The notes beneath the pieces were generated by a model. That model ran no database searches. It saw only the letters and a list, made by a program, of their open reading frames with translations, and was not told where the DNA came from. Positions 12,952 to 20,200 of a stretch of 43,837 bases of DNA are shown here, piece by piece; position 1 is the stretch's first letter, and every line of letters begins with the position of its first letter. Made by a program: the position numbers and the translations under genes. This DNA comes from Bacteroidota bacterium (GTDB lineage Bacteria; Bacteroidota; Ignavibacteria; Kapaibacteriales; UBA961): contig SXZI01000047.1 in assembly GCA_005788035.1 (NCBI GenBank), positions 1 through 43,837 on the forward strand, given 5' to 3'.

Positions 12952-15798
12952 ATGAAACATAGGACTGCAATAACAATGCCAAAAGATATGGACAATACAT
13001 CTCCTTTATATCAAGCCATGAAAAGGCGCTCGGTTTCTTCGGGTTCCAAACGTGAAACTCCGCTGCAATTGTATTTTCAAATCAATGTGGATGAACATGG
13101 TGCATATCTACGCATCATAGATGATAGCAGGCGTGATATTGAGCCGGATCCACGAGGATATTCCGGCCCTGTTCGTGATATTTTACAGTTAATTGATGCC
13201 ATAAAACTCCGAACTGCATTTCAGATTGATTGGGAAAAACCATCGGGAAGATTATATCTGGCAGATAATGAGACAGTATTATGGCAATTGAGAAATTGTC
13301 CAAATGTCGTTGATGCAGCAATGCGTCCAATTCAATTCGCAGATAATGATCAACTTGGGAAAGTAATCATAACAATTCAGGATGCGGAACCTCAACTTGA
13401 AACAACATTCGCGGTGGAATACAATCATGAGATCATCAGCCCCATCATGGCCATCACCGAAACCTGTGTCTATGCTCAAGGAACATTAATTGATATCAAA
13501 TCACTTGGTGGCAAACCTCAATCATTGCGTTTGTTTCAAACATTCGTCTTCCCTCATGAATTGGAAAAATATCTTTCTCTATTGATGAGTACATATCCAG
13601 GTATCAGTATACGATATGACAATTTCATCGTGGAAGAGGGCGAACCCATTACCACTCAGCAATGTGTGTTCATTGAGAAAATCGATGCAGACAATACGCT
13701 ATATCTCCGTATGTCACAATCCATTCCGGAAACCGAACCCACTCTCATCGAAGAATTTGACATTCAACGTTATGTGTCCGTGAATCCGGCAGAGAAGAGA
13801 ATGTTGATTTCTCGAATTCTTGACAAAGATATAGCACCCCTTGTTGAAGGACTTTCAAAGAAATTGTCTCAAATCAAAAAGCTTGCTCGTACTTCTTCCG
13901 ATTTCATCGTGGATGGTACATTATTCATCATTCAAGAAGAATTGGCAAGGGAATTCATCAGAAAAGAATTGGAACATATTGTCCAGAACTTTGTAGTATA
14001 CGGTTCTGAGAATCTCAAGACATATAGAATCAAATCAGTCACTCCAACATTATCAGTTTCTCTCAGCCATGGTATCGATTTTCTCGAAGGAGATGTGGGA
14101 GTTGTGATTGATGAAGAGCACTTTACGGTATTTGATGCATTAGCCATGTTCAAAAACCATGGATATGTTCAATTATCTGATGGAACTCAAGCATTGCCAA
14201 ATGCAGAGTTCATGCGAAAACTTGAACGTATCTTTCATAAGTCCAAAAAGAAGACACGTATTTCATTTTTTGATTTGCCAATCATTGAAGAATTGCTTGA
14301 TGAAAATGCCGCTGAAAAAGCATTCCCTAAAGCTAGATCCATATTCCGCGGCTTCTCAACATATCAAGATCGTGACATACCCATTCCATCTTTAAATACC
14401 GAACTCCGTAATTATCAGGAATTGGGTTTTAAATGGATGCGCTATTTGCATGACAATCGTCTCGGCGGATGTTTGGCAGATGACATGGGATTAGGGAAAA
14501 CCCTTCAGACCATCGCATTGCTTGCTTCATTGTATCCTGGTGAGAAAAAGCAATCACTCATCATCATGCCAAAAAGTTTATTGTTCAATTGGGAACAAGA
14601 AATCAAGAAATTTGCTCCTCAAATCTCAACCTATACATATTATGGTGGAAATAGAGACTGGGACTTGGCTATTAAATCCGATGTGATCCTCACAACATAT
14701 TCAGTATTGAGAAATGATATTGAAGCTTTACGTGAAAAAGAATTTCATATGGTGGTGCTGGATGAATCACAAAATATCAAGAATCTAAATTCTCGAACAG
14801 CGCGATCTGCTCTGCTTCTACGGTCAGAATGTAGATTTGCATTATCCGGCACACCTATTGAAAACAATATCGGCGAGCTCTATGCATTATTTAGATTTTT
14901 GAATCCTTCGATGTTTGGCGGACCGGACGAATTCACAAGAATGTACGCAACACCAATACAAAGAGAGAATAGTAAGGAGATCGCATCGGAACTCAGAAGA
15001 AAGATTTTCCCGTTCATCCTTCGCCGACTAAAAAAAGAAGTTGCAAAAGAATTGCCTGATCGCATTGAACAAACAATCTTTGTTGAAATGTCACCCGAAC
15101 AGATGTCTTATTATGAACAAAGACGCAATTTCTATTATCAAACAATTCGTGAAGAAATTCAGGCAGAAGGTTTGCAGAAATCACAATTCCACATCTTGCA
15201 GGCATTAAGCGATCTTCGTCAAATAGCATCATGTCCGGAAGTAAAAACCGAAGGTACTATCATTTCTCCAAAGCGAGAAGTTCTGATGGAACATGTTGTT
15301 GATGCAGTGGCCAATGGACATAAAATTTTGATATTCTCAAATTACATCGGTGCAGTCTCCACGATTGAAGAAGAACTTACAAAAGAAGGTATCGGTCATG
15401 TTGTTATGACCGGCTCTTCCACGAATAGACAGAGTATCGTTGAAAAATTCCAAAAGGATGATTCAATCAGAGCATTTGTCATGACATTGAAAACCGGTGG
15501 TTTGGGACTTAATCTTACGGCTGCGGACATGATCTTCCTCTATGATCCATGGTGGAATATTGCCGCAGAAAATCAAGCAATTGATAGATCTCATAGAATT
15601 GGTCAAGCGAACACTGTATTGAGTTATAAACTCATCGCTCGCGGATCCATTGAGGAAAAAATTCTCAAACTACAAGATCGTAAACGAGAGTTATTCGATG
15701 CAATCATATCAACGGATGGTGGTTCACTAAAAGCTTTGACTGAGGAAGACATTGAGTACATATTAGGCGATGGAGAGACAAATGATCATACAAGATGA
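12952..15798 (+). CDS. SNF2-family DEAD/DEAH-box ATPase
   Basis: This is a 948-aa bacterial SNF2/Rad54-like double-stranded DNA translocase. The helicase core occupies roughly residues 480-930. Motif I is ADDMGLGKTLQTIA near 508-521, motif II is DESQ at 604-607 in place of the common DEAQ/DEAH, and motif III is SGTPIENNIGELYALFRFLNP. In lobe 2, SNYIGAVSTIEEEL, TGGLGLNLTAADMIFLYDPWWN and QAIDRSHRIGQ are motifs IV-VI. The first 480 residues are beta-rich and unlike known zinc-finger N-termini; no SWIM cysteine cluster is present. The gene overlaps the next one by 17 bp, whose ribosome-binding site lies inside this reading frame, so the two proteins are probably produced together. A chromatin-like remodelling, transcription-recycling or defence role cannot be decided. 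Confidence 0.92.
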   Translation: MKHRTAITMPKDMDNTSPLYQAMKRRSVSSGSKRETPLQLYFQINVDEHGAYLRIIDDSRRDIEPDPRGYSGPVRDILQLIDAIKLRTAFQIDWEKPSGRLYLADNETVLWQLRNCPNVVDAAMRPIQFADNDQLGKVIITIQDAEPQLETTFAVEYNHEIISPIMAITETCVYAQGTLIDIKSLGGKPQSLRLFQTFVFPHELEKYLSLLMSTYPGISIRYDNFIVEEGEPITTQQCVFIEKIDADNTLYLRMSQSIPETEPTLIEEFDIQRYVSVNPAEKRMLISRILDKDIAPLVEGLSKKLSQIKKLARTSSDFIVDGTLFIIQEELAREFIRKELEHIVQNFVVYGSENLKTYRIKSVTPTLSVSLSHGIDFLEGDVGVVIDEEHFTVFDALAMFKNHGYVQLSDGTQALPNAEFMRKLERIFHKSKKKTRISFFDLPIIEELLDENAAEKAFPKARSIFRGFSTYQDRDIPIPSLNTELRNYQELGFKWMRYLHDNRLGGCLADDMGLGKTLQTIALLASLYPGEKKQSLIIMPKSLLFNWEQEIKKFAPQISTYTYYGGNRDWDLAIKSDVILTTYSVLRNDIEALREKEFHMVVLDESQNIKNLNSRTARSALLLRSECRFALSGTPIENNIGELYALFRFLNPSMFGGPDEFTRMYATPIQRENSKEIASELRRKIFPFILRRLKKEVAKELPDRIEQTIFVEMSPEQMSYYEQRRNFYYQTIREEIQAEGLQKSQFHILQALSDLRQIASCPEVKTEGTIISPKREVLMEHVVDAVANGHKILIFSNYIGAVSTIEEELTKEGIGHVVMTGSSTNRQSIVEKFQKDDSIRAFVMTLKTGGLGLNLTAADMIFLYDPWWNIAAENQAIDRSHRIGQANTVLSYKLIARGSIEEKILKLQDRKRELFDAIISTDGGSLKALTEEDIEYILGDGETNDHTR

Positions 15799-17611
15799 TT
15801 TGTCTCCCTTGGTCCAGGATATTTGCGATCATTATAGTCATGCAGAACTTGCAATGGTTTATACAGAATATCTGCGTGGTCAAGTTCTGATCCACTCATC
15901 ACATCCTGCTTTGCAAGATTTCATCGACGGTGCAAAACAAACCGAGACCCCTGAAAAGATTGTGATTGCGATGCTGTATGCTACAATTGTAGTACAAACG
16001 GATCTTGCCGAAGCACTATTGCAATATCTACATAAACCAGTTTATGCCATCTTGGAAACAGTAGTTTGGCGTGGATCTTGCCAAGCTGTTCAATCTTCTT
16101 CAAAAGATCGCGATGAAATAACCACGATTCAATATTCAGAAGATTCAGTCTTGCCATCAATGGCAATCGCAAAACCTGAATATTCATTACTTGCTCTGGA
16201 TGAGCTGACTCCACCACTTCTGCGAAGAGTACAAACATCGAAAGCACCTAAATTCCAAAATGTTTGGTTTACACTGCCGCCATTATTAAAACTTGCTTTC
16301 AGAGAAATAATGGAAGCACCGATTTCAGCTCTTCCATCAACTTCATCAGAACTTCCAAAAGCCCCTAAAGGCGGATGGTGCGTTTATGAATCAGAGCATA
16401 GATTACCCGAAATCATCAAAGATCTGATTCCGAGAATCAGGACCGATTTTTATATCGAAGAATGTTCATCACCAAATTCATTGCAAAGAAAGAAGACAAA
16501 ATCTTTGATTTCGATGTATTCCCTTCCCGAACTATATCCTGATCAACGTGAATTTGACACAATTCAAACCTCCGCTCTCATTTGGTTATTGTTGCATGCA
16601 CCCGATGATACAACCATTGCAACAGGTTCCGGAATAGATGTAACCCGTGCATGTTATGAATTACTTGTGAAGAATACATTACCCATCAAAGACTATCTCC
16701 TGCATTTTCTACATGACAATCATACTAAAAACAATCTGTCATCCATTTGTGCAGGAATCCCCCATTTGCTTGACTTGTTCCCAAAACAAGGGTGGATGAA
16801 TATAGAGTCTTTGATTGACTCACTTATCGTGCATGAACAGCTACCCCCCTTTTATCCCGAATTACCGGCGAAAGAAGAAGCGGCTTATCTAAATCTGTCA
16901 ACCTATGATAAACCCCCGGTAGATCCTCTCACCTATCGTGAGGCAATCTATCCATCATTGATAAGAGGCATATTAGGCCTACTTGGTTCATTGGGAATGC
17001 TTGATTTTCTTGGAAATAAACCAACAAATCATCACTATCAATTGAAAGGCTTCACCTTCCTTTCTCCATGGGACGGCTTGGCATATGCAAGAATCACTGA
17101 ATTGGGTTTGATTTTCCTTGGAAAACAAAGTGAAGATATCATAACAAAGTCCACACAGGAAGAAGATCCATATCTACTCGATCCCGAGCGACTCATGATC
17201 ACAGTACGTGGCACAGCTGCTCATAGGCAATTGGCTCTCACTCAATTTGCTCGTAGAATCAGCGGACAATTTTTCCAAGTAGATTCAACAATATTCACCA
17301 AAGGATGTCACTCTGTACGAGACATCCAACAACGAATACAGCAATTCAAAAGCATCATCAGACAAGACCTTCCTGATAATTGGGAACAATTTTTCGAAAA
17401 TATGATCGACAAAGCAAATGCGCTCATCCCCGAACCTGCAGCGCTAGTGTTCAAATTGAAAGATCAATCCGAATTGGCCCAAATTTTCGCAACAGACCCA
17501 GAGTTAAGACTCATAACCAAAAGAGCAGAAGGGTTCCGCATCATCGTCAATAGATCCGATATCCCGAAACTGAAACAGCGTTTGGGAGAACTCGGTTATT
17601 TTATTGATTAA
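15782..17611 (+). CDS. Unknown 609-aa partner of the SNF2 ATPase, helicase-associated-like C-terminus
   Basis: The ATG at 15782 has a GGAGAGAC ribosome-binding site inside the SNF2 gene, which it overlaps by 17 bp. No characterised domain is certain. The last 175 residues resemble, in order, elements of the XPB/Ssl2-type helicase-associated (Helicase_C_3-like) module: a winged-helix ending YARITELGLIFLGK near 434, the strand LLDPERLMITV, a helix HRQLALTQFARRISG, DIQQRIQQFKSII, and a terminal FATDPELRLITKRAEGF with SDIPKLKQRLGELGYFI. This match is by eye and distant. The N-terminal two thirds is mostly helical and unassigned. The tight coupling argues that it works with the SNF2 motor. There is no signal peptide or membrane segment. 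Confidence 0.75.
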   Translation: MIIQDDLSPLVQDICDHYSHAELAMVYTEYLRGQVLIHSSHPALQDFIDGAKQTETPEKIVIAMLYATIVVQTDLAEALLQYLHKPVYAILETVVWRGSCQAVQSSSKDRDEITTIQYSEDSVLPSMAIAKPEYSLLALDELTPPLLRRVQTSKAPKFQNVWFTLPPLLKLAFREIMEAPISALPSTSSELPKAPKGGWCVYESEHRLPEIIKDLIPRIRTDFYIEECSSPNSLQRKKTKSLISMYSLPELYPDQREFDTIQTSALIWLLLHAPDDTTIATGSGIDVTRACYELLVKNTLPIKDYLLHFLHDNHTKNNLSSICAGIPHLLDLFPKQGWMNIESLIDSLIVHEQLPPFYPELPAKEEAAYLNLSTYDKPPVDPLTYREAIYPSLIRGILGLLGSLGMLDFLGNKPTNHHYQLKGFTFLSPWDGLAYARITELGLIFLGKQSEDIITKSTQEEDPYLLDPERLMITVRGTAAHRQLALTQFARRISGQFFQVDSTIFTKGCHSVRDIQQRIQQFKSIIRQDLPDNWEQFFENMIDKANALIPEPAALVFKLKDQSELAQIFATDPELRLITKRAEGFRIIVNRSDIPKLKQRLGELGYFID

Positions 17612-17640
17612 AAATATTTTTTACTCTATTATAATTTTAT

Positions 17641-17648
17641 TAACTTTG
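17641..17648 (+). promoter_or_regulatory. Candidate promoter of the accessory block
   Basis: TAACTTTG fits the Bacteroidota -7 consensus TAnnTTTG and sits in a very AT-rich gap after the helicase pair, about 100 nt upstream of the preferred start at 17749. Transcription would begin near 17655. The -33 region is T-rich without a clear TTG. Confidence 0.4.
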
Positions 17649-17748
17649 TATCGTTAACACATGATATGAGTTTAAAACAATGCTCATATAGTTCGAAACT
17701 AAGATGAATCAGGGTTCTTTATTACGTTTATTTATTGGGGGTTATTCA

Positions 17749-18639
17749 ATGTCCACAAGATTTTTACATGCACTTGAACAAAGAGGCAATACACATTTTT
17801 CGGCTTTTATTGCTAATCTTTGCCATGATGCCCGAATTGCTTGGTATCCTTCGGCCGGTACTGATTTCAGACCATTGTTTTTTTTGGATGAGACATTTTA
17901 TGCTCAACATCCTTCCGATGGTAAAGCCGATCCGCTACAACCGGATATTTTTTTATATACTGATTATGATCTGATGAGCAAGCCATTTGAGGATGCGCTT
18001 TTTCATCAAGGCAATCCGGTGATTCATGAGGATGGCAGAACAAAAGTCACCCTCATGAACATAGAGCATCTAGGAAGATGTGAGTTTGCTCCCTATTCAG
18101 TGCATCAAGAACATGAAAGAAATAGTCATTATTTCAATCGGATCTTCTTTTTTCAAGTAAAGATTGAAAGCAGATTGGGAACATTTATCAAACCTGTTCT
18201 TTATGCTTTTTGCAATAATGAGCAAATCTGCTCAGAATTATTGATTCCAGTAAGAGCTACTGTGAGTCATGTGATTCATGTAAGGTATGGACATGGGTTT
18301 GGCGGAGCAAATTGTTCCGGACTTTGGATTCAGCATGTATTGCCATTGTTGAATTGCGAAGTGTACATTCACGACAAAATGGCTCATGATTCTGCAGCTG
18401 AACAAGTTGTGATAAGGCATTATGGAAATGTGATTCCTCAAAATCAAATTGCAACATTTGCAACCATTCGAACAATTGATGGGAAATGTTGGTCTGATTC
18501 ACGGAAAATAGTATGGCAATTGGTTGAAAGAGACAAACATGCAAACATTATCTATCATTATAATCGTGAATTAAGAGAACTCAGATTGCGAACTCGAATG
18601 ATAATGAAAAATCAAAGAATGTATAATTTTTTAGTGTAA
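17749..18639 (+). CDS. Unknown protein with WYPSAG-x-DFR motif
   Basis: The product is 296 aa from the ATG at 17749, chosen because GGGGG lies 7 nt upstream; an in-frame ATG at 17704 would add 15 residues without a clear ribosome-binding site. I cannot assign a function. Near the N-terminus are FSAFIANLCHDARIAWYPSA and then GTDFRPLFFL, a motif I associate with uncharacterised bacterial proteins in variable regions. Later, RYGHGFGGANCSGLWIQ forms a glycine-rich conserved-looking stretch. Several tyrosines, histidines and acidic residues could make an active site, but no known catalytic triad is evident. There is no signal peptide. It leads a block of four unknown genes with AT-rich composition. 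Confidence 0.7.
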   Translation: MSTRFLHALEQRGNTHFSAFIANLCHDARIAWYPSAGTDFRPLFFLDETFYAQHPSDGKADPLQPDIFLYTDYDLMSKPFEDALFHQGNPVIHEDGRTKVTLMNIEHLGRCEFAPYSVHQEHERNSHYFNRIFFFQVKIESRLGTFIKPVLYAFCNNEQICSELLIPVRATVSHVIHVRYGHGFGGANCSGLWIQHVLPLLNCEVYIHDKMAHDSAAEQVVIRHYGNVIPQNQIATFATIRTIDGKCWSDSRKIVWQLVERDKHANIIYHYNRELRELRLRTRMIMKNQRMYNFLV

Positions 18640-18644
18640 ATATC

Positions 18645-19301
18645 ATGTCAGGAAAAACGTATAACTCAAAAGAAATATGCGAGATGTTTAATATCTCTGC
18701 ACCTCGATTATTACAATTCAGAAAAGGACAATCAGTAAATGTAAAGACCTCAAAAGAGGGTGCCTTGAGAACATATAAATTCGAAGCACTTCTTGAAGAA
18801 GGACAGGATTGGTATTGGGATGGATCGGAAGTAGTTTTTAGACAATCATCTGTGACCAAATTAAGCAAGCGTAAGATTTACAATAAAAATCGAGATAATA
18901 ATGCTGAGCCAAAAGAAAGAAAAAAGAGGGAAAACAAAAAAGAGAATCTATTAAAGGAAGGTGAATACACTGTGCAAGAAATTGCTGATAGGCTTGATAT
19001 AACCGTCCAAAAGATTTATGCCTTACGTGACATAAGCTCCAACAAACCGGTTTCCTACAAAAATTATCTCATTCAAAATCAAGACTGGAGATATGATGAT
19101 GGAAAAGTGATTCTCCTGCAAACCGCCAAGGAAAAAATTAAAGGGTATATCGAATTATTGAAAGACAGAGAAGAAGTGCCAAAAGCAAAGCGTATCGCAA
19201 TTTTGATTGGTACAAAAGTATTTCATCTTACAGGTGAGGCAGCTTTTAGAGTTATTGATATCATAGAAGATGATCAAGCAAGAAGAAAAGTAAAACAGTA
19301 A
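18645..19301 (+). CDS. Tandem helix-turn-helix DNA-binding protein
   Basis: The 218-aa protein contains two copies of one module. Copy 1 (about 5-70) reads YNSKEICEMFNISAPRLLQF ... GQDWYWDGSEVVFRQ; copy 2 (about 107-165) reads YTVQEIADRLDITVQKIYAL ... NQDWRYDDGKVILLQ. Each begins with a MerR/excisionase-like helix-turn-helix (EI-x7-I-x3-x-[RK]) and ends with a QDW-[YR]-[WY]-D wing. A strongly basic linker (about 80-102, KERKKRENKKEN) joins them, and a helical tail follows. The arrangement suggests binding to a two-part DNA site as a monomer. It starts 5 nt after the previous gene, so the two are probably co-transcribed. The coding sequence is A-rich, which suggests transfer. The regulated genes are unknown. 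Confidence 0.75.
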   Translation: MSGKTYNSKEICEMFNISAPRLLQFRKGQSVNVKTSKEGALRTYKFEALLEEGQDWYWDGSEVVFRQSSVTKLSKRKIYNKNRDNNAEPKERKKRENKKENLLKEGEYTVQEIADRLDITVQKIYALRDISSNKPVSYKNYLIQNQDWRYDDGKVILLQTAKEKIKGYIELLKDREEVPKAKRIAILIGTKVFHLTGEAAFRVIDIIEDDQARRKVKQ

Positions 19302-19331
19302 TACATGTTATAATATTTAGGGGTTTACCTT

Positions 19332-19706
19332 ATGAATTCAAAAGAAGAAGCATTGTTATTCGAACTCGTATCGAGAAGTAATGGATATGGAGATGGCGTG
19401 GCATTATATCCATTTGAAAGCGTATTGAGAGATATGTTCGACAACAAAGTAGATGGCAAGCTTGCTATATACAGTTTGCAGAAGCAAGGAATTATTCAAA
19501 TCAATGAAAAGGCAGGATGGGATGAATTTCGCAAGAGAAGCAGCTTATATCCTGTATATATAGTTACAACAGATGGCTGGGAATATGCACTAAAGGCACG
19601 TGGCGAAGAATTGAAAATCAAAGAGAAGATTGAACAAGAATCACTGGACGACATAGATCTTCCGGATTTTTTGAAAGAAGATGACACGGATGAGCTGGAT
19701 GACTGA
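19332..19706 (+). CDS. Small acidic winged-helix-like protein
   Basis: This is a 124-aa protein of unknown function. The N-terminal KEEALLFELVSRSNGYGDGV, the helix DGKLAIYSLQKQGIIQIN and then VYIVTTDGWEYALKARGEEL follow the helix-helix-wing order of a winged helix, ending in the familiar TxxGxxyA-type strand-to-helix turn. The last 25 residues are very acidic (DDIDLPDFLKEDDTDELDD). Such a tail can mask or mimic DNA, or bind a basic partner; the preceding gene product has a highly basic linker, so an interaction is conceivable but is pure inference. Translation likely uses a GGGG run 8 nt before the ATG, like two neighbours. No signal peptide is seen. Confidence 0.62.
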   Translation: MNSKEEALLFELVSRSNGYGDGVALYPFESVLRDMFDNKVDGKLAIYSLQKQGIIQINEKAGWDEFRKRSSLYPVYIVTTDGWEYALKARGEELKIKEKIEQESLDDIDLPDFLKEDDTDELDD

Positions 19707-19734
19707 TTTTTTTAAGATTGTGTAGGGGGATTAC

Positions 19735-20166
19735 ATGGATTTTGACGACGTGATTGATGTCATAGGGTCATCATTTACTTTTCACATACCTGACACAGAA
19801 GGGTATTCCTATGACATAGGAGATGAAGAGAGAATTCTTGGGGAAAGTGATCCCGAAGCCACAAAAAAGTATGTTGATAATATGGTGCATGCAGACGGAT
19901 ACAGAAACATGATTCCGTCATTCTTAATCTTAAGTGAGAAGTTCACTTCCATTCAGCAAGTGAAGAGAGCTGCTTGTGCCGTTGTTCAATCATGTTATTA
20001 CATTGACTTCGGAGCACATCATATAACATGCGACAAAAAATCAATGACGATACGTTATGTAACTGTCGGAACAGCAATGTTTATAACAGGATCCATTACC
20101 CTTAGCGGTGCTCATTATGAGAAACTGTATCTTGAATATTTAGACTTTTTGGAAGAGAATAAGTAA
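19735..20166 (+). CDS. Unknown 143-aa protein
   Basis: I do not recognise this protein. It starts MDFDDVIDVIGSSFTFHIPD with an acidic N-terminus. A helical middle follows (SEKFTSIQQVKRAACAVVQSCYYIDFGAHHITCD), with closely placed cysteines and the pair HH. The end is beta-rich, RYVTVGTAMFITGSITLSG, with a final helix YEKLYLEYLDFLEENK. There is no signal peptide and no confident membrane segment. GGGGG 5 nt before the ATG is shared in style with the two other genes of this block, so they look like a unit of common origin. It is the last gene before a bidirectional terminator that ends the block. Confidence 0.6.
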   Translation: MDFDDVIDVIGSSFTFHIPDTEGYSYDIGDEERILGESDPEATKKYVDNMVHADGYRNMIPSFLILSEKFTSIQQVKRAACAVVQSCYYIDFGAHHITCDKKSMTIRYVTVGTAMFITGSITLSGAHYEKLYLEYLDFLEENK

Positions 20167-20200
20167 AAAAAGAGGCATTCATATTGAATGCCTCTTTTTT
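20165..20200. terminator. Bidirectional Rho-independent terminator
   Basis: The arms AGAGGCATTCA and TGAATGCCTCT pair perfectly around a tiny TAT loop, with A6 before and T6 after. The symmetry lets it end both the plus-strand unknown block and the convergent minus-strand acyl-CoA dehydrogenase gene, whose stop is at 20202. Confidence 0.92.

Follow-up and report, generated by a model that had tools for sequence, protein, structure and literature searches.

Members of the MerR family are described as dimers with one winged helix-turn-helix (HTH) unit per chain (PMC4981023). The TraN protein of plasmid pIP501 is portrayed as an internal dimer of two winged HTH units that was crystallized as a monomer; each of its halves, and in each case only the half, is similar to MerR and excisionase domains (PMC4981023; PMC10877727; PMC6540685). 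TraN is reported to place its recognition helices into adjacent major grooves of the DNA and to repress the tra operon as well as its own promoter (PMC4981023; PMC10877727; PMC6540685).

Here we analyze a protein of 218 residues encoded in a stretch of DNA of 43,837 nucleotides (the window). An initial annotation of the window had described this protein as a tandem of two MerR-like HTH units in one chain and had set this design apart from the classical dimeric MerR proteins. The design is not unprecedented, however, because TraN is already a single-chain internal dimer according to the papers cited above (PMC4981023; PMC10877727; PMC6540685).

Two Copies of One Module in a Single Polypeptide Chain

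The tandem protein and its parts are laid out as follows.

18645–19301, plus strand: tandem-module protein, ATG at 18645, stop codon ending at 19301, 218 amino acids
18654–18878, plus strand: half 1, predicted MerR-type winged-HTH module, residues 4–78 (model, VIA-align, stand-alone-module HMM)
18729–18782, plus strand: wing-like hairpin of half 1, residues 29–46 (model strands 29–34 and 41–46)
18879–18962, plus strand: basic linker, residues 79–106 (composition, low pLDDT)
18963–19169, plus strand: half 2, diverged second module with a shortened wing region, residues 107–175 (HMM bits, HTH_17, VIA-align)
19170–19298, plus strand: C-terminal tail, residues 176–218, predicted hairpin and helix (model; conserved in four orthologs)

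Half 1 carries the motif Y6-x3-E10-I11-x5-I17 and, further downstream, G-Q54-D55-W56-Y-W-D59; its counterpart in half 2 reads Y108-x3-E112-I113-x5-I119 and N-Q146-D147-W148-R-Y-D151. The shared layout pointed out in the initial annotation is therefore present in both halves, with the corrections that five residues and not seven follow the EI pair and that the residue in front of QDW is G or N, not Q or N. In the four orthologs, the D and the W of QDW are invariant in both halves, while the Q is variable.

The relatedness of the two halves, likewise claimed at the outset, held up in each comparison that we made. BLASTP aligned half 1 with half 2 at E = 2e-6 (as a single comparison), and the local alignment score of the two halves of the window protein (62, against a shuffle mean of 27 and a standard deviation of 5) was reached by none of 2000 shuffles. 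In the orthologs the corresponding score was reached by 1 of 2000 shuffles (G220), by 0 of 2000 (G298) and, in the weakest case, by 25 of 2000 (G296). When the half 1 alignment was compared with the half 2 alignment by hhalign, the two matched with a probability of 85.8 and an E-value of 5e-6. A non-circular HMM, built from 13 rows of stand-alone modules and excluding any row of the tandem protein, gave 53.4–63.7 bits for half 1 and 14.8–19.7 bits for half 2 when the halves of the four orthologs were scored singly; half 2 of G296 matched over its second part only. Among shuffled sequences (2000 made per half, 1868 and 1854 of them scored), the best values obtained with this HMM were 9.8 bits for half 1 and 7.6 bits for half 2. 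Half 2 also matched the module profile in hhalign (probability 95.4), while the neighboring genes 3 and 4, used as controls, reached 0.2 and 0.05. Since both halves score above every shuffle and the controls fail, we take the halves to be copies of one module; judged by their sequences, the two modules in this chain are related beyond chance.

The region between the halves is indeed very basic, as initially noted: residues 71–106 contain 14 K/R and 6 D/E among 36 positions (pI 10.2), and the net charge of the entire protein ranges from +11 to +19 in the four orthologs. We also considered the C-terminal hairpin and helix as a third copy of the module and ruled this out, because 658 to 1869 of 2000 shuffles reached its score in the four orthologs. 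dN/dS values permit at most a claim of purifying selection, since dS exceeded 1 or was not computable in most pairs.

Established domain models recognize the protein poorly. HTH_17 (PF12728) matched residues 108–128 of half 2 (E 2.8e-5) and, weakly, half 1 of three orthologs, with all of these matches staying below the curated cut-off of 27 bits; no Pfam HTH model exceeded its curated cut-off for the tandem protein. At E ≤ 1, neither the MerR nor the MerR_1 model matched the window protein. Among 17 module copies, the best MerR_1 match had an E-value of 0.0047, and the copy at locus L010 obtained 16.2 bits against a cut-off of 21.6. Pfam recognized no effector domain in the tandem protein. Weak PHROG rows included a Ren-like exclusion protein (E 5e-4), whose match spanned the linker and the start of half 2.

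Predicted Fold of the Tandem Protein

The tandem protein was modeled with AlphaFold2 on the basis of six sequences, and the fold was assessed with VIA-align and Foldseek. The model of the whole tandem protein is weak (mean pLDDT 64, pTM 0.39), with half 2 and the linker as its weakest parts. Averaged over blocks of ten residues, pLDDT lies between 77 and 89 for residues 1–70, except for residues 31–40 (59), and between 53 and 68 for half 2; it falls below 50 for residues 80–104 of the linker. In half 1 the model places helices at residues 8–15 and 19–27, a hairpin at 29–34/41–46, a second hairpin at 56–59/62–66 and a helix at 67–85, and in the tail two strands (184–188 and 191–195) and a helix (198–217).

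Because VIA-align Z-scores below 8 can be ordinary, we relied on the consistency of the list of matches. For half 1, the first 21 rows were all MerR-family, GlnR, RacA or excisionase domains, and the first departure from this pattern was Xrn1 in row 22 (6.7). The best row was HiNmlR (5d90; Z 8.3, 56 aligned residues, rmsd 2.0), and further rows included 6jni (8.0), 6jgx (8.0), SoxR (7.6) and MtaN (7.5), with CadR at 8.0. This list supports the assignment of half 1, as modeled, to the MerR-type winged HTH fold. For half 2, the best row was the DNA-binding domain of pSK1 Par (8csh; Z 6.1, 52 aligned residues); given this modest match and the low pLDDT of the blocks concerned, the assignment of half 2 to the same fold rests mainly on the profile evidence, and we make it with low confidence. 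Structure prediction, the check that had been suggested for the two proposed MerR-like HTH units, thus returned an HTH in half 1 (Z 8.3), while that of half 2 was modeled at low confidence (pLDDT 53–68, best row Par at Z 6.1). The model does not agree with the suggestion that each unit is closed by a QDW wing; QDW opens the second hairpin (56–59/62–66), and the wing-like hairpin is instead formed by residues 29–46.

When the whole model was compared with the PDB by Foldseek, no match passed 0.001; AbfR ranked first, and TraN occupied ranks 2, 3, 5 and 12 at non-significant E-values of 0.22–0.46. TraN was not among the 50 VIA-align rows listed. The module profile retrieved from the PDB first 8vd6, listed as a CAP repeat (0.0038), then TraN entry 6g1t (E 0.008) and 4p0y (0.019). 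On 6g1t, the first part of the module corresponded to TraN residues 9–30, while the Y..P..eG.D...k...t...l..k part corresponded to residues 74–120 in the C-terminal half. With profiles of the full protein, nothing in the PDB matched significantly, and TraN was absent from the rows at E ≤ 1 (profile A1) and at E ≤ 10 (profile A4).

A Small Family of Modules

Orthologs of the tandem protein are present in four of the seven genomes of the genus that were searched, that of the window included, and share 55–59% identity. In the genomes searched, the tandem form is restricted to a single Kapabacteria-type genus, and among 296 sampled genomes from the phylum, full-length matches came from members of this genus only; the shorter matches included single-module proteins. 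Weak matches of profile A1 in genomes G182 and G245 lay inside unrelated ORFs and were set aside. The viral_contigs, phage and plasmid collections contained no sequence relatives of the tandem protein, and a single-protein search of the genome contigs collection gave no match.

The module itself is more widespread. Of 391 genomes from the class, 15 contained it according to a profile of six module copies (two of the 15 via the tandem protein), and it was found in two more genomes of the phylum (loci L019 and L022). It either makes up a protein of about 80–130 residues or forms the C-terminal part of a longer one. We counted module copies by scanning 530 ORFs, drawn from the window and 79 loci (80 sources in total), with a 17-row module profile. 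Each of the four orthologs contained two copies (second copy at E 2e-4 to 3e-3), a count that leaves out three further ortholog copies cut by locus ends, and each of 16 other ORFs with a sequence E-value below 1e-9 contained one. At the level of sequence, the modules make up a small family, and none of the Pfam models attained its cut-off where the tables gave one. Pairwise scores of half 2 did not clearly favor half 1 over other modules; half 2 may stem from a duplication of half 1 or from the joining of two module genes.

At locus L063 (positions 901–1734), two genes that each encode a single module are close neighbors on the same strand, in the vicinity of ORFs that we read as ParA- and ParB-like, and the wing region of the first is shortened like that of half 2. 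It is possible that such a gene pair represents a precursor arrangement for the tandem protein. At locus L010, a single-module relative is located downstream of a 1610-aa ORF that, by our reading of it, resembles a tape measure protein.

A Four-Gene Block That Was Deleted in a Sister Species

The gene for the tandem protein is the second of a block with the following further features.

17633–17655, plus strand: AATTTTATTAACTTTGTATCGTT, a stretch conserved upstream of the genes and including TAnnTTTG; candidate promoter, possible operator
17749–18639, plus strand: gene 1, DUF7663; the ORF opens at 17704, start taken from ortholog comparison
19332–19706, plus strand: gene 3, 124 amino acids, conserved acidic tail SLDDIDLPDFL; same block in three other species
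19735–20166, plus strand: gene 4, 143 amino acids, orphan, detected in four of the 16 genomes searched, namely those that have the tandem protein
20166–20200, no strand assigned: terminator-like symmetric hairpin (stem of 16 pairs, minus-strand listing) that separates the block from the convergent acyl-CoA dehydrogenase gene
17780–17788, plus strand: AAAGAGGCA, left repeat copy at the deletion junction of the sister species
20169–20177, plus strand: AAAGAGGCA, right repeat copy at the same junction

All four genes point in one direction, are separated by gaps of 5, 30, and 28 bases, and end at the terminator-like hairpin. Because the ORF of gene 1 opens 15 codons ahead of the ATG used by its orthologs, its real start is probably at 17749. 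For genes 3 and 4 there was no Pfam match at E ≤ 1 and no PDB match at E < 0.2. The acidic motif of gene 3 could serve to bind a basic protein region, and the linker of the tandem protein is one candidate.

The recognized genes of the surroundings have housekeeping functions (DnaX, Obg, YbeY, a MutY-type glycosylase, isocitrate dehydrogenase, Ddl, PheT). A Pfam scan of 20 window proteins between 4656 and 30922 revealed no integrase, partition or transfer genes, and the plasmid collection contained no match for genes 1–3. Orthologous blocks exist in three other species. In two of these (G296 and G298) the block occupies the same place, flanked by a gene for a 613-aa protein, which adjoins an SNF2 helicase gene, and by the acyl-CoA dehydrogenase gene; in the third (G220) it is cut by the contig end. 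The 613-aa protein (15770–17611) belongs to no recognized family and is present in all seven genomes of the genus and in none of seven other genomes of the family.

The block is missing from a sister species (G299) whose 613-aa protein is 94% identical to that of the window. Alignment of the window with contig G299:C6 (locus L032, 5199–5210) extends to position 17788 and resumes at 20166, so that 17789–20165 are absent, and the two ends share AAAGAGGCA. Since G299 retains the first 13 codons of gene 1, the block was deleted from this species between short repeats and not inserted into the genome of the window. In two further genomes (G204 and G297) the block is absent and the neighbors are different.

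The Upstream Region of the Block

The sequence TAnnTTTG is a promoter element of the Bacteroidota. The AATTTTATTAACTTTGTATCGTT stretch, which contains it, is identical at 20 of 23 columns in three aligned carriers of the block, against 42 of 119 columns outside, with the reservation that these 23 columns were picked for being the densest. Between the window and G299, 6 of the 23 positions differ, which equals the rate outside (29 of 119) and would be expected if the site had lost its constraint once the block had been deleted.

Further downstream, the leader of the window contains the inverted repeat ATATGAG-12-CTCATAT (17664–17689), and that of G298 contains a different 8-bp repeat, GCCGATAT-12-ATATCGGC, in a similar place and with the same 12-base spacing. 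Arms of this length arose in 90 of 300 shuffles for the window and in 39 of 300 for G298, and the repeat is absent from the G296 ortholog; the two repeats may possibly form a covarying hairpin, which is not significant by itself. In the window and in G299, few shuffles equal the low folding energy of the leader (17 of 200 and 29 of 200, respectively); this does not hold for G298 and G296. Our search for a two-part operator found no significant repeat upstream of the block.

Proposed Function of the Tandem Protein

The reading that we prefer, and to which we give about even chances of being right, is that the tandem protein is a regulator of the TraN type, a single chain whose two heads bind DNA in a sequence-specific way, and that it represses its own four-gene block. 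We infer each of its elements, namely DNA binding, the target, action as a monomer, autoregulation, and repression in preference to activation. Both halves would represent one small winged-HTH module of the MerR type, with half 1 canonical and half 2 diverged, so that one molecule would set two recognition helices on two neighboring sub-sites, in likeness to the way in which TraN uses its two halves, while the basic linker would grip the DNA backbone. The most likely target would be the promoter region upstream of the DUF7663 gene, and the outcome repression of the block. In favor of this reading we counted the duplication, the predicted fold of half 1, the HTH_17 and Par matches of half 2 and the positive net charge, further that TraN was reached along two different routes through the data (Foldseek run on the complete model, and the module profile), and that the block is one-directional, has orthologous counterparts and is preceded by a conserved stretch. 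Against it we counted the weak whole model, the lack of significant PDB matches with Foldseek and with the full-protein profiles, the Pfam HTH scores below cut-off, the lack of a significant upstream repeat, and the long linker, which is unstructured in the model.

The main rival derives from gene 1, because DUF7663 looks methyltransferase-like in its model and elsewhere sometimes lies beside defense genes. According to this explanation, the tandem protein is a DNA-targeting subunit that brings the DUF7663 enzyme and the two orphans to DNA as a modification- or defense-like unit and does not regulate transcription. Gene 1 matches PF24699 with 131.7 bits against a cut-off of 27, and its model is confident (pLDDT 83). 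All of the 50 VIA-align rows listed, except 3opy (a phosphofructokinase), are methyltransferases, aminopropyltransferases or entries holding one; we classed them by title and by name, partly from protein names that we take to denote these enzymes, and two ribosome-assembly entries come without a named chain. These structural rows mostly represent methyltransferase-type Rossmann folds, yet the best Z-score (7.2) lies within the ordinary range of the tool. The first two Foldseek rows and some others are methyltransferases as well, followed by phosphatases and kinesins, with none at E ≤ 0.001. DUF7663 occurs in 24 loci, five of which belong to members of the genus, to a contig piece of one of them, or to a relative from the order. 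At eight of the other 19 loci we picked neighbors by eye, which does not provide a rate; four of the eight had defense-type matches (a type IIG restriction-methyltransferase at L045, Mrr at L039, a nucleotidyltransferase with HEPN at L038, and a DruE-like helicase at L053), two had a DUF2779 protein beside DUF7663 (L041 and L054), and two had nothing (L048 and L050). Half 2 itself is matched by the PADLOC model mad1 (E 2e-5), a match that may reflect only its HTH. Against these points stands the finding that tblastn detected no homologs of the tandem protein, gene 3 or gene 4 beside DUF7663 outside the genus. Moreover, the locus is syntenic and lies among housekeeping genes instead of in an island, and in PADLOC DUF7663 had no match, while the rows of genes 3 (0.033) and 4 (0.0099) were weak. 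We regard a targeting subunit as doubtful, while still the strongest competitor. Its boldest form, a hitherto undescribed DNA-directed modification or defense unit in which the two-headed protein would read a bipartite site and deliver DUF7663, with the orphans as partners and the tandem protein as a chromosomal TraN-type relative within an enzyme complex, strikes us as quite improbable. A literature search for DUF7663 gave no match. At one locus (L024, 5789–7032), the DUF7663 gene is directly followed, near the contig end, by an ORF resembling a Cas1 fragment.

A second alternative concerns half 2, which might not bind DNA at all and might instead serve as a protein-interaction or dimerization domain, so that the protein would act as a dimer through half 1. 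In its wing region half 2 is about ten residues shorter than half 1, and it lacks the conserved glycine of the R-x-G element of the module; its residues 121–131 and 133–137, invariant in the four orthologs, would fit any fixed surface, and the helix of the tail could dimerize. However, HTH_17 matches the window protein in half 2, and 8csh, the structural match of this half, shows a DNA-binding domain on centromere DNA. On balance, we consider this explanation unlikely. Least probable is an excisionase- or partition-like DNA-architecture protein left behind by a mobile element: excisionase-type domains do occur in the fold list (2kvv, 4j2n, 1y6u) and single-module relatives lie near phage- or plasmid-type genes (L010 and L063), but neither an integrase nor a partition gene is among the 20 scanned window proteins, the phage and plasmid collections hold no match to the tandem protein, and the block sits at the same place in four species, its loss from G299 being a deletion that left 13 codons behind.

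The data suggest that the TraN-type tandem of MerR modules, known from conjugative plasmids of Gram-positive bacteria, also exists in chromosomes of a distant phylum, with the single-module relatives as a possible source of such a tandem. That a tandem reader is paired with the methyltransferase-like DUF7663 also offers a concrete functional idea for a domain that is sometimes found beside defense genes.

Comparison with Known Systems

MerR-family DNA-binding domains (HiNmlR, CadR, SoxR, and MtaN) share the predicted fold of half 1, with Z-scores of 7.5–8.3 over 56–59 residues, but carry one module per chain, whereas the tandem protein carries two in each of its four orthologs. MerR regulators also bind the promoter spacer as dimers and possess a dimerization helix at the C-terminus and, in many cases, an effector domain; the model of the tandem protein shows helices at residues 67–85 and 198–217, and Pfam recognized no effector domain in it. 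The best match of half 2, pSK1 Par (8csh), is a partition protein, and the comparison is qualified by its modest Z-score and by the low confidence of the half 2 model. Among viral proteins, the one that matches the whole model best (E 6.7e-4 over 174 alignment columns) is an HTH DNA-binding protein of 126 residues from the Rhodococcus phage ChewyVIII (A0A1C9EI55), which may, as far as the model permits this comparison, be another tandem design.

The closest described system is TraN (PDB 4p0y, 4p0z, 4pm3, 6g1t), which has, as predicted for the tandem protein, two MerR/excisionase-like winged HTH units per chain. Sequence similarity between the two proteins is marginal. The TraN sequences listed have 122–149 residues, while the tandem protein has 218 and an extra tail; TraN possesses a compact central interface to which the wings of its halves contribute, whereas the tandem protein has a basic linker of about 30 residues that is unstructured in the model; and TraN is encoded in a conjugative transfer operon, whereas the block of the tandem protein lies among chromosomal housekeeping genes. 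The only relevant item returned by a literature search for tandem or pseudo-dimeric MerR proteins was a review on TraN (PMC6540685), and others may exist in print. The single-chain tandem architecture is hence already known from TraN, while the protein family, its chromosomal setting, the long linker and the partnership with DUF7663 are, as far as we have seen, new.
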